64,000 nt of DNA. Origin: Amphibalanus amphitrite (taxonomy: Eukaryota > Arthropoda > Thecostraca > Balanomorpha > Balanidae). The stretch covers positions 265,272 through 329,271 of the forward strand of contig NW_024882323.1 in assembly GCF_019059575.1 (NCBI RefSeq). Reading direction: 5' to 3'. Positions 17,443-26,400 of this stretch are shown one piece after another; within the stretch, counting starts at the first letter, position 1, and each line of letters begins with the position of its first letter. The notes under the pieces were generated by a model. It had not been told where the DNA came from. It was given only the letters and a program-made list of their open reading frames with translations, and searched no databases. The translations under genes were made by a program, and so were the position numbers.

Positions 17443-20400
17443 CGGTCTTTGGATGGAGGCAAGGGGATAACGAACTCTGTCATATTCCCACTGAAGAACG
17501 GAATGGAAAGTGGGCTGTCCCAGGCCCTTGCAGTAATGCAGGTAAGAATCAGATGAGAATATTTAATCGATGGTCATGTCACGATTCGTCACACCAAAAA
17601 CACGAGCATAATATTCGACGGGAAGATCATACTTTTCACGACTATTTACAGTTGAAACCCAACAGCATTACCAACATTTTGCAACAATGTCATTTTGCTT
17701 CAAACGCAAAACGATAAAAATACTTGATAATTTCCGTAGCTTTAAATAACCAGCTTTCTCATATTCACTACTTAATCTACGAGTATCCTTTTTTCTTATT
17801 CTTGAAATGCTTCAGGTGACCTGACCGTTGACTGCAAATTGTTTTCGAGCAAAGTACAAACTCAGTCCAATACAAAAAGCAACATATTTCAGGAAGCCAA
17901 ATTTGCTGCTCCAAAGAACGTTTGACACAAACGCAGTGGATCAATGAACAGAGCTGCGATGTTTGTTGGTTTGTTTGTTTATAGTTTATTCTATCGTTTA
18001 TTCTTGATCATGGGTATGGGCAATGGACAGAAATAAAGTTGAACTGAATTGTTGCAGGAGAGGGGTGTCAACGTGGTGCACATTGAGAGCAGGAAGGCAC
18101 GCTCTATGGACGCCGAGTACGAGATCTACATGGGTCTCGACTGTGACGGAATGGTAGGTTACACCGTGCGTGTGAACATTTTCACGTACGGTGTGAAAAT
18201 ATTCACGATTCTCAGTGAATATTTTACGGGTGGATTTTATTTACGGCAGCAAATAAGTAAAACCGTAAATAATACACGGGCGCCCAGCTGTAAATGTTGT
18301 GTCACCCAAACATTTAACCATGGTTTCAATAAATAAAACTCTTACTCCATGCAATTATTAATCATAGCTAAGCACAATACTTTTCTCACAAAACACCTCA
18401 AATTGAATCAATTAAAAATGTGGTACTTACATACCCATAATTGTGCGACGGTACTCTTCAATTCTTCAATCAATTTACATTTTTGGCAGCTGCAGCGCGC
18501 AAAGGGTGTCTTGATTTCTGATCTCATTTACAGGACATGCAGTCACTCGCAGAAGAACTGGCGAGAGTGCTGGAAACTCCTATCAAGTAAGATCAATAGT
18601 CACTGCACAGTGCACAATACACACTGTGATGCATTGGTACTTACACATTGAGATGCATGGGGATAAGTATTACCAGTAAAACGCCTTTTGGGCGAAGAAC
18701 GAGCGAGCGAGATAGTGAGCCCTGCACGTGCGGAAGGGCGAGAGGGTGCTTCCAACGGGCTTGGGCAAAGCACCCTTCTAACTGGTCGCTAGCGGTGTGC
18801 CAAATTTGAACGCAATCGGCCCAGCCGTTCCTGAGATCTGGAAGCGGCATTCTGCACGTGCGCACGTGCAAACGGGGCCCAAAATGACTTTTGCACGGCA
18901 CCCTACTAACTGGTCCCCAAGCGTGTACCAAATTTGAGCGCAATCGGCCCAGCCGTTCTCGAGATCTGGAAACGCCCCCTGCACGTGCGCACGTGCAGTA
19001 GCACCCTAACCGTAACACATGGGAATGCATTGCCTGGTGGGTGCCTACCTGTATGCCAAGTTTCAGCGAAATCGCCCCAGTAATTACCGAGTTACTGAAA
19101 TGGGAACAAATTTGGCACCTCTTATTGTTGTATTTTGCACGTGCACTGGGGGTGACCCACATGCATCGAGAGTATCCTATTTTGGGTAGGAGGGATGCTG
19201 CTGCCCTACAAAAATTACCGCAAGTCAATCGCCCAAGCGGCTGCTGAGATATGAGCCTCTCAAAATCACTACTTTTGCAAAACAGCTTGAACACCCTTGA
19301 CTTTTCACGTGGCACGTGCCACGACGGTCACTGAGATGTATCAAAATCGACATTAGGGCCCCCTAATGAAGTTTAGTGGCTCGACGAGGCGCGAATTGGA
19401 GACTCCGCGAGCCGCCTGGTCCGAGGCAGGGTCGGGAGAACACTCTGTGGGGAGGGGGCGAGGACGGGGAGGGAGGGGGAAACGGGACGGAGGGGACAGC
19501 CGTCAGTCTGCGGCAGAGGCCGGCGGGGAGCGGAGATGGACCGCGGACAGCGCGTCCCTGTGTGATAGAGCGTGTGCTTTACGTCCTGTGAGTCGGGCTC
19601 GTGAGTAGTGTGGGTACGGCGCCTAGTGAGCACCATCGAGGACGAATCAGTGGAGAAACGGGGCATGGACACCGCTTATCACTACGACCGCGACAATCAC
19701 GGCATGGCAGGTGGGTCCGGTACGCCGGCACCAGCGTCCTCCACATGGGTCATGTGTGATATGGCTGGCTGTGTTGACGAGTTACCGGGTACCTGTTATG
19801 AGTCGTGTTGTGCGTGTGTTTGTTACACCGGCAGCGGAGGGTGCCGGGCCGTTCCAGGCTGAAACGTCGAGATTGGGCCGGTAAACGGGCGACGGCGGGC
19901 GAGGGGCGTGCAGGCCGACAGCGCCGACACAGGGCCAAGGCGGCCGACAGACCGGGTGCCGGGCCGTTTCAGGCCGACAGCGCCGACACAGGGCCATGGC
20001 GGCCGACAGACCGGGTGCCGGGCCGTTTCAGGCCGACAGCGCCGACACAGGGCCATGGCGGCCGACAGACCGGGTGCCGGGCCGTTTCAGGCCGACAGCG
20101 CCGACACAGGGCCAAGGCGGCCGACAGACCGGGTGCCGGGCCGTTTCAGGCCGACAGCGCCGACACAGGGCCATGGCGGCCGACAGACCGGGTGCCGGGC
20201 CGTTTCAGGCCGACAGCGCCGACACAGGGCCATGGCGGCCGACAGACCGGGTGCCGGACCGTTTCAGGCCGACAGCGCCGACACAGGGCCCATTGCGGCC
20301 GATCGACCGGGTGCCGGGCCGTTTCAGGCCGACAGCGCCGACACAGGGCCATGACGGCCGACAGACCGGGTGCCGGGCCGTTTTAGGCCGACAGCGCCGA

Positions 20401-23400: not shown

Positions 23401-26400
23401 ACACAGTGTTTCATTTCCCTGAGTGCGGGTTGCAGGTGGTCGGGTACCTGAGTTGGCTTGTCGGGCTGTGTGCGCGGCGCTCGCTCCGCGACGTACAGGG
23501 GGCCGATAGCCGGGCGCGTCAGGCCATGGCCATGCGGCCGAGAGACTTCATGACGCATGATGATCTGGACCGGTTCGCGGCGCCCGCGGCCCCAGTGCGG
23601 AATGGTGGGAACCCAGGCCCCGGGGGAGGGTTTCGTAATGGCCGAGTGACATGTATGCGTCATGTTCAACGGAACGTGTGCCGTTTCCCGTGCCCCGAGA
23701 ACAGGTATCACCCGCCGTGTACCGAGTGTGGTTCTCAGGTCCACCCTACAGGTTACCACGGAGCACCAATCGGCGGTGGCGGTTTTGGCCCGGCATTGGG
23801 CCGCGGCCGGGGACCGGTGAGCCGCGGCGGTGTTTTTCCCTAGTGCCCAGGTGAGTGCAACACCTGCCGCGGCGCGAGACGCGTGCCCGCCTACACCGGT
23901 ATAGGCGCCGAGAGACTTGACCAAGTGTTCCGGGGCTGTCCCAATGTTAACCTAGAAACGCGGAGGTCGTCTTGTACCGCTTTCGCGTCCGAGCTCAGCG
24001 GATAGGGTTCAGAGGGGGCCGCCGGTGGAGATTCACCGCGACAACCGCTCCGCCGTGCGGCGCAGCAGGGCCGTGTGTGCTGCGATTACCCGGGAAATCA
24101 ATAACGGATTCCCTAGGGGACCTGTTCAGACGCCCGGCTCTTTTTAGACCTGTCCCACCCGATGGGAGCTTTGTGGTGTCGGTCGGGGTGACACGGACGA
24201 CGCGGTCGCCGTCTACGATCACATTCAGGCGATATGTCGCTATATATCGAACTTTTGGGGGTCATATTAGACACCGTCGCCACTGTCCGGTTATCGACTC
24301 TGCGTGTGCCAATACACTACAATTGCCTATCGGTTCCAGTTGGGGCATTTGGTGGTAGATGAGGAGCGCAACCAAAAAGTGGGTGAGTACGGCCAATAAC
24401 AGCCAAATGGGAATGGGAGCACGGGACAATGGCGATAGAGGAGGAAACACTAATCGACATTAGGGCCCCCTAATGAAGTTTAGTGGCTCGACGAGGCGCG
24501 AATTGGAGACTCCGCGAGCCGCCTGGTCCGAGGCAGGGTCGGGAGAACACTCTGTGGGGAGGGGGCGAGGACGGGGAGGGAGGGGGAAACGGGACGGAGG
24601 GGACAGCCGTCAGTCTGCGGCAGAGGCCGGCGGGGAGCGGAGATGGACCGCGGACAGCGCGTCCCCCGCCCACCATCCCCACACAGCGGCCCCTCTTCCT
24701 TTCTTTTTCTCTCCTTTTCTCGTTTTTTTTTTAACTCCACTCCTGCTTCGTTGTCTTTGTTAGTTGTCCCCAGTAATAGGTACCGTCGTCTCACCCAAGG
24801 TTGTGGTAGATGAGGAGCGCAACCAAAAAGTGGGTGAGTACGGCCAATAACAGCCTTGTCAATTACGGGGTAGAAGGGGTGGGGCTACCCAACAAAAAAG
24901 ACCGCAGGCCAATCGGTCCAGCGGTTGCTGAGATATAAGCCTCTCAAAAGCGTTACAGGCCGGGCCGGGCCGGGCCGGGCCGGGCCGGGCCGGGCCGGGC
25001 CGGGCCGGGCCGCTCATACTGAGATTTTTCCGTTATATTGAAAAGACTCACTTCGCTCGCTGCGCTCGCTCGCTCGTAATCAGCACTGGTGAATGCAAAC
25101 AGTTCATTTACATTCATTTCAGTCAAAATAAGTTTCTTAGGTATGACTTTTTCTCTTTTCAAACAAACTTGTTACGAGCGAGCGAGCGCAGCGAGCGAAG
25201 CGAAGTCTTTTCAATATAACGGAAAAATCTCAGTATGAGCGGCCCGGCCCGGCCCGGCCCGGCCTGTAACGCTTTTGAGAGGCTTATATCTCAGCAACCG
25301 CTGGACCGAATGGCCTGCGGTCTTTTTTGCTGGGTAGCCCCATCCTTTCTACTCCGTAATTGACTACTTTTGATACATCTCAGTGACCGTCGTGGCACGT
25401 GCCACGTGAAAAGTCAAGGGTGTTCAAGCAGTTTTGCAAAAGTAATGATTTTGAGAGGCCCATATCTCAGCAACGGCTTGAGCGATTGTCTTGCGGTCGT
25501 TTTTATAGGGTAGCTGCATCCCTTCTACCAAAGCACAGTGGGGATTTTTCCGATCTAGCGCCTATTAATTCAAAAAATATTTTTTGGATTTTTGTTTATT
25601 TTTTGTGTCAGTGGGGCTAAGAAATGTCTGAATTTTTCATCTATGGCATTGTTTTATCTGTATGTCCACAGCAAAACTAGGAAAAATGCGCCCAAAGTTC
25701 ACACTCATGCGTGATTACTCAATGGGCTCAACAAGGCCCGAAAGTATAGCTCAATTTCATTGTCCTGTCCTGTTGGTTTTAATCTTGCGAGGTCTTAAAG
25801 TTGCATATCGTCTGAAAGGCACCTTTATTAGGAATGGAATGGCAAACAGAAAGTATGCCACAACCTTACTAAGGTCACAAAAATGCCCTTTACAAAAAAA
25901 ACCCTTACAGACACCATATTGAAGGAATGGTATCTACTATTATCTACTATTATAAATCTTAAAAAGTCCGCCGTCGGGGTAACGCCCAAAAACGCTTATA
26001 GCGGCGCCGTCGATTGACGCAGGGGGGTGAAATTTTCACGGCTCGTGGATCGCGTCATTCAACAGGTCGTATTAAATTTTGGGCACGATGCGGCCAGGGG
26101 TGCGCCCGTGGCGCGTGCTCACGTGGTGTGCCATAGGGTTAACACTAGAATCGGCAACAGACTATTGCTCGGGAACGGTAAGGGCTACGGGGGTAAATTT
26201 TTCGCTGCAAGTCGGACGCGTGCACTCATTTGTCGTATTAAATTTTCGAGAGGGTGGGTTCAGCGGTGTGCACGTGGTGGGGCCGCGACCGGCGCCGAGC
26301 AGAAGGCACGTGCTTTAGGTTCAGTTGTTCGCTTAAAAAACTGAGTGGAAAGCAATAGAGCCGGCAGGTCATTGACCTTTGCCAACGAAGGCTGACACAA

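Follow-up and report, generated by a model that had tools for sequence, protein, structure and literature searches.

A stretch of 64,000 nucleotides from Amphibalanus amphitrite (contig NW_024882323.1, positions 265,272 to 329,271 of the forward strand), referred to here in its entirety as the window, contains at 19345-24855 a mobile element with split direct repeats, which encodes a tyrosine recombinase (YR) and a gag-like protein and is devoid of a functional reverse transcriptase (RT) gene. This element very probably belongs to a non-autonomous family of split-direct-repeat YR retrotransposons in which the RT gene collapsed and which was subsequently amplified with RT provided in trans. The evidence comprises the structure and copy number of the family, RT-bearing sisters in the same genome, a relic of the RT gene at the expected place, the identity of the two A repeats within individual copies, and two recurrent kinds of right end; the RT itself is presumably supplied in trans.

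The repeats of the element, all of whose features lie on the forward strand, are ordered A1-...-B1-A2-B2, the arrangement of split direct repeats by which Ngaro elements are recognized. A1 (19345-19558), whose start region is the same in other copies, is identical to A2 (24452-24665) at 214 of 214 positions. B1 (24352-24404), which represents the first 53 nt of a 100-nt B repeat, matches B2 (24803-24855) at 53 of 53 positions, and comparison of the repeats identifies this B2 as a short 53-nt form that makes up the right end of the window copy. The last 47 nt of the B repeat (24405-24451) stand between B1 and A2, and they follow B2 in nine of the 13 copies whose right ends were classed, the window copy not being among them. 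A chance origin of these repeats is implausible because of their length, their full identity and their recurrence in other copies. The 5' leader carries a GC-rich tandem array of 59-nt units (19785-20880) whose extent varies between copies; the distance from A1 to A2 reaches 11.7 kb in the copy on C449, where several extra kilobases lie between two parts of the array. The YR frame (21334-22437; first ATG at 21388, 349 aa) is overlapped by the gag-like frame (22347-23843; first ATG at 22488, 451 aa), which contains a CCCH-type cluster, and 508 nt without a long gene of their own separate gag from B1. The termini and the two intact frames, with YR placed before gag, had already been described in a preliminary description of this DNA, and both points are borne out.

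The window YR is Cre-like, with a best PDB match at E 4.8e-5, and its Pfam matches, a SAM-like N-domain (E 0.0035) and Phage_integrase (E 0.12), fall below the curated cut-offs. Residues R, K, HxxR, W and Y, which we take to be the catalytic ones, are present in this order, and the encoded tyrosine recombinase is a trait shared with both Ngaro elements and Cryptons. The gag-like frame displays by eye a C-x8-C-x3-C-x5-H cluster and matches no Pfam family at E up to 1.

The element is not solitary. In a search of 807,550,619 bases (807 Mb) in 2644 contigs, the A repeat yielded 40 scored matches on 26 contigs, those on C148 and C51 being only 71% identical. Twenty stretches were fetched, covering 19 of the remaining contigs with A matches (six such contigs were left out), and none of the 20 contained an RT match at E 1e-3. 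Both genes are carried by six copies (window, C241, C335, C429, C449 and C1236); YR is open in four of them (window, C335, C241, C429), gag likewise in four (window, C429, C241, C1236), and the two together in three (window, C241, C429); the gag frames of C241 and C1236 include an insertion some 11 residues long. Both ends are in direct order in the two-gene copies of the window, C241 and C449; the right end of C335 is an inverted block, and no second A is found among the matches listed for C429 and C1236. Other copies are internally deleted or rearranged yet retain their ends (C1517, C32, C1562, C163, C217, C827, C488/C182, C338, C92), and those on C60, C75 and C87 are cut. The earlier argument against simple decay of one copy is thus upheld by a multi-copy family that lacks RT.

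Several further observations concern the copies themselves. An inverted B-A block at one end, representing a rearrangement from split-direct to inverted repeats, occurs in C335 (L057) and C1562 (L058). The copies on C488 (L062) and C182 (L063) have an identical right flank on two contigs and are probably two alleles kept by the assembly or a duplication. Additionally, the B end recurs, with 83-85% identity, in a second family (C1345, C1290, C871, C1575, C312, C140, C147, C127, C186 and others); decayed YR pieces occur at several of its loci, at 2.6 to about 10 kb from B1, and neither gag nor RT appears there among the listed genome matches.

The absence of RT noted in the preliminary description was corroborated by tblastn with an RT from the same genome, which found no RT frame in the window at E 1e-3, and RT/RNase H is represented in the RT-less family by a relic only. 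This relic (23844-24351), frameshifted and internally deleted, was revealed by searching all six frames of the interval with a profile built from nine RT pieces, namely those of C236, of the YR-first loci C139, C57, C1054, C56, C927 and C108, and of C1340 and C244, where no YR is listed. Frame 2 matches profile positions 47-82 (20.3 bits) and 224-248 (9.9 bits), frame 1 matches positions 2-33 (-1.9 bits), 100-114 (0.3 bits) and 261-275 (2.6 bits), and frame 3 matches positions 21-50 (2.0 bits). All pieces are forward and ordered as in the RT protein; for comparison, the best forward score among 200 dinucleotide shuffles was 1.8 bits, and the gag region attained at best -5.0. Positions 115-223, which by our reading hold most of the RT catalytic region, have been lost, as has everything after position 275, RNase H included. 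At E 0.01, the first strong piece (about 33-82) was detected in eight of the 20 fetched stretches and the second (224-248) in six of those eight, and the deleted middle block in none of the 20. The relic region recurs at at least 98% identity in ten places across the genome (C826, C182, C449, C241, C488, C338, C1517, C1562, C335 and, in part, C429), for which a single RT-loss event in one founder is the simplest reading.

Genome searches returned 78 matches for the window gag, 118 for the window YR and 75 for the RT of a related element (the best 71 of 2047 candidates were scored in the RT search, and gene lists were compiled from six-frame matches), and two architectures were distinguished, gag-RT-YR and YR-gag-RT. 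The former, the usual order, is found at C236 (L071), read over 7 kb, where the RT gives an RVT_1 match at 2.8e-11 and RNase H is weak (RVT_3, E 0.054). The latter, with YR, gag and RT in this order on one strand by coordinates, occurs among the matches listed at 15 loci (C1917, C56, C562, C3, C739, C927, C14, C108, C1054, C57, C139, C230, C293, C730 and C877); C1635 also has the three genes in this order, with YR 10 kb off. The window gag is 38-55% identical to the gag of the 15 YR-first loci and 27% identical (E 2.6e-7) to the gag preceding RT in C236, and for YR, the best-matching pieces at these 15 loci reach 55-69% identity to the window YR, compared with 37% in C236. Pairs of B1 and B2 follow the RT at five sister loci (C1917, C1054, C56, C927, C108), 495-525 nt apart and beginning 131-558 nt past the RT match; at the 3' end of C1054 (L073), the pair is identical at 142 of 142 positions and 495 nt apart, and a search with this end recovered the pairs at the other four loci. 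By eye, the RT frame of C57 ends about 45-50 residues past what is presumably the RNase H end motif, and that of C1054 stops within the initial 60 bases of L073, B1 following some 120 nt further on. No methyltransferase was found in the three window frames or the C236 RT frame (Pfam, E up to 1), and none was seen by eye in the sisters C57 and C1054, where no Dam profile search was made.

Since the RT-bearing sisters have the YR-first order too, the position of YR before gag in the window element has been inherited from an RT-bearing family, as have its split repeats, and the order is unrelated to the missing RT. Because RT-bearing relatives exist and the relic occupies the same place as their RT, the window element is a deletion derivative, with both the gene order of its relatives and the deletion scar in evidence. 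The preliminary description had proposed that many copies lacking RT would indicate a distinct family and that a longer RT-bearing sister would indicate a deletion derivative. The A-repeat search did return many matches and no RT in the fetched stretches, and such sisters were also found; the notion of a family without full-length relatives has to be abandoned, given the relatives with RT between gag and B1. Of the suggested distinct lineage that borrows RT, the borrowing is retained as most likely and the distinct origin is not.

The history of the repeats can be read from a comparison within and between copies, in which the first four alignment columns were left out. A1 and A2 of the same copy show no differences in nine of 11 pairs, and the A repeats of different copies differ at up to 19 positions; in C335, the second A is inverted and cut, with 15 missing columns. 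Across the ten pairs remaining without C335, the differences between A1 and A2 sum to 6, against a mean of 60.0 and a minimum of 10 when partners were shuffled, and none of 2000 shuffles was as low; when C1387 and C827 were left out as well, 0 differences were observed against a mean of 10.8, with one of 2000 shuffles as low. Homogeneity of split repeats is implied by the reverse-transcription model (PMC6681497). In C1387, the frames are broken, yet A1 equals A2, which fits mobilization in trans.

The right ends fall into two classes among the 13 that were classed, the inverted blocks of C335 and C1562 being left out. Nine reach base 100 of B (C241, C1517, C1387, C217, C163, C488, C182, C338, C92), of which eight are independent, as C488 and C182 share flanks, and four stop at base 53 (window, C449, C32, C827); the end in C32 follows a doubled B, and in C827 the next three letters agree, placing the end between 53 and 56. 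The second B-end family also has one short end near base 54 (C32:475989). The trinucleotide TAN precedes the conserved start in five of the six base-100 copies with both ends read (the exception being C1517) and in none of the four base-53 copies. An exact target duplication of 89 nt accompanies the base-53 end of C449; no duplication was seen in the remaining copies for which left and right flanks were compared. The insertion in the window replaced GTA by TT, provided that the second arm of the target repeat represents the original state. Empty versions of this repeat are abundant (the best 40 of 983 first-look candidates were scored), and the joined flanks of the window copy match 39 of the 40 in all 97 letters and the remaining one in 95. 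For the base-100 copy on C241, the joined flanks align over their whole length with a related empty site at C136, with 87% identity over 86 bases. Although the numbers are small, the base-100 ends look like circles inserted by YR and the base-53 ends like linear complementary DNA (cDNA) inserted otherwise. In C338 (L064), the sequence continues beyond B2 with the initial 73 nt of A, as from a circle or a head-to-tail insertion.

A nested hairpin spans the B1/A2 junction (24448-24485), as assessed by DNA folding against shuffled sequences. Its stability in the window corresponds to a z of -3.08, with two of 200 shuffles as stable, and the junction of C1054, composed of different letters, gives a z of -6.33, with none of 200 as stable. 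This hairpin, which surrounds a TAA core, is probably the recombination site, on which YR would act.

Because A1 equals A2 in nine of 11 copies though the copies differ, and because two right ends recur, movement through RNA is favored over Crypton-like movement of DNA. The following course of events may be proposed. The ancestor would have had the gene order YR, gag, RT/RNase H; its RT/RNase H gene would then have been reduced to a relic of 500 nt, after which the element, now shorter, would have multiplied. Its RNA, starting near the beginning of A1 and ending near base 53 of B2, would be copied by the RT of another element; this helper would be one of the YR-first sisters or an RT-bearing element more distantly related. 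As template for completing the ends and closing a circle, the internal B1-A2 block would be used, in accordance with the published model for elements of the Ngaro/PAT type, and YR, the element's own or the helper's, would insert the circle by recombination at short TAN cores, with no duplication of the target. In a minority of copies, that of the window included, linear cDNA would have been joined to the genome without YR.

Several observations weigh against parts of this scheme. The equal scores at several of the 15 YR-first loci (C1917/C56/C562; C139/C230; C293/C730) suggest that some of these loci may be alleles or duplicates, and four places (C1340, C244, C111 and C562:288-291 kb) list gag and RT without a YR match. 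No B pair was found in the 2.35 kb after the RT of C57, and the only B-A-B end read from a sister, that of C1054, shares only short words with the window element; a helper acting on the ends of the RT-less family is hypothetical. A1 and A2 of C827 differ at six positions. Furthermore, the RT-less copies show at most weak constraint on their own genes. With codons containing indels skipped, synonymous and nonsynonymous distinct variants in five copies relative to the window number 5:8 in YR (1:2.58 from sites alone) and 17:28 in gag (1:2.73 from sites alone); per-copy ratios range, on few changes, over 0.52-1.93 for YR and 0.59-1.03 for gag, and the older C1387 copy gives 0.72 and 0.80, respectively, with 112 of 337 YR codons and 98 of 468 gag codons skipped. 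With constraint this weak at most, the family may or may not have relied on its own YR and gag after RT was lost. Identity to the C139 YR (57.9% versus 56.1%) indicates that the YR of the window family has not evolved faster than that of a sister, in a comparison that mostly covers the time before RT was lost.

How much is borrowed can accordingly be viewed in two ways. A helper may supply gag and YR in addition to RT, so that the frames of the family are merely young remnants. This variant is conceivable, if somewhat doubtful; it agrees with the weak constraint and with the movement of C1387, C163, C217 and C827 despite broken or deleted genes, while the retention of both open frames in half of the two-gene copies, and of an open YR in two thirds, speaks against it. 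With comparable reserve, the family may tentatively be regarded as a semi-autonomous YR retroelement that would provide its own capsid and integration and borrow only the RT of YR-first helpers, its insertions preserving both linear cDNA (ending at B base 53) and a YR-integrated circle (ending at B base 100, at a TAN core).

Movement as DNA in the manner of a Crypton, also raised in the preliminary description, would have YR excise and reinsert a circle, leaving the split repeats ornamental. An intact YR in an element without RT is compatible with this route, as is the absence of target duplication from the other copies compared at both flanks. Plain DNA excision, however, would let A1 and A2 drift, and their identity within copies that differ from one another is unexpected; the RT relic lies at the expected place, RT-bearing sisters have the same layout, and the recurrent end near base 53, once with an 89-nt target duplication, resembles linear cDNA. 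The repeat identity and the end structures thus make this explanation very unlikely. It is even less probable that segmental duplication of a single dead, immobile element produced the copies: the right flanks of C182 and C488 are indeed identical, but the other right flanks and 17 left flanks differ by eye, and unoccupied target sites can be found for the window copy and, with 87% identity, for that on C241. That the RT-less family is an ancient, distinct lineage which never had RT, with the sisters gaining it, deserves hardly any credence: YR and gag are indeed adjacent and open in the window copy, but the relic between gag and B1 is colinear with the RT of the relatives.

Among known systems, Ngaro elements share the A1-[ORFs]-B1A2B2 repeats (ORF, open reading frame), gag and YR. 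The Ngaro elements of Cafeteria are about 6 kb long and GC-rich, with the order gag, RT/RNase H, YR (PMC8547959), an order found neither in the window element, which has YR before gag and no RT, nor in its YR-first sisters. Ngaro elements lack a methyltransferase, and split direct repeats also occur in PAT and VIPER elements (PMC4157794). The PAT group (Pat1, Toc3, Kangaroo) resembles the window element in these repeats and, for Pat1, in a zinc finger in gag (PMC4157794). PAT elements are characterized by a methyltransferase together with split direct repeats, of which only the repeats were found in the window element, with no methyltransferase in it or in the RT-bearing relatives looked at; the YR of Kangaroo, moreover, is inverted, unlike that of the window element, which lies on the gag strand. 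SIRE, the non-autonomous form of VIPER, is likewise RT-less with split-repeat ends, but is described as consisting of a few hundred bases of VIPER ends (PMC6681497), whereas the window family keeps YR and gag. The ORF1-deleted Ngaro type 2b of Cafeteria is also a recurrent deletion variant of a split-repeat YR element, but one that loses the gag-like ORF1 and keeps RT, in contrast to the window family, which loses RT and keeps gag (PMC8547959).

Crypton DNA transposons have in common with the window family the presence of YR and the absence of RT; they differ in that the RT relic and the homogenized repeats of the latter point to an RNA route, and its gag homology and RT relic do not fit a YR transposon free of retroelement genes. 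Cryptons are not known to have split direct repeats. In Chlamydomonas, TOC1, like the window element, is an RT-less split-repeat element with internal tandem repeats. The window family is best classified as non-autonomous, possibly semi-autonomous, and as an RT-less offshoot of split-direct-repeat retrotransposons with YR in first place. The lack of a detected methyltransferase puts it nearest to Ngaro, and its repeats put it nearest to Ngaro, PAT and VIPER alike. The earlier assignment to the Ngaro type is supported by the split repeats and the lack of a detected methyltransferase, but such repeats are common to PAT and VIPER and the gene order differs; given that difference, membership of Ngaro proper is not claimed.

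With regard to its surroundings, the element is housed in a fold-back repeat (19182-19346 with 25368-25532) whose arms are 92-100% complementary, within which a GGCCG-type run lies at 24858-25364. Elsewhere in the window, the reading frames suggest long simple-sequence arrays at 26545-28488 and 49296-49930, comprising a Y-P-T-L-P run on the minus strand (TACCC-type unit) and a CT run, and a 455-aa frame at 291-1658 contains by eye several C2H2-like zinc fingers.

Searches of openly licensed literature returned nothing that matches the YR-first order or RT-less YR retroelements, TR-GAG elements offering an analogy. As far as those searches reached, two things are new: RT-bearing split-repeat elements in which YR comes first, and a descendant of such elements that has lost RT but retained YR and gag. 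The former extends the known architectures, and the latter bears on which functions such elements can borrow. Structure has so far been the main basis for inferences on the regeneration of ends and the circularization of split-direct-repeat YR retrotransposons. The repeat-completion model becomes testable from genome data with a young family in which two right ends recur and one copy of one end class bears an 89-nt target duplication, an opportunity to which the B1/A2 hairpin of similar shape in two families also contributes. If the semi-autonomous reading is true, the insertions described here would lend this model support from genome sequence.

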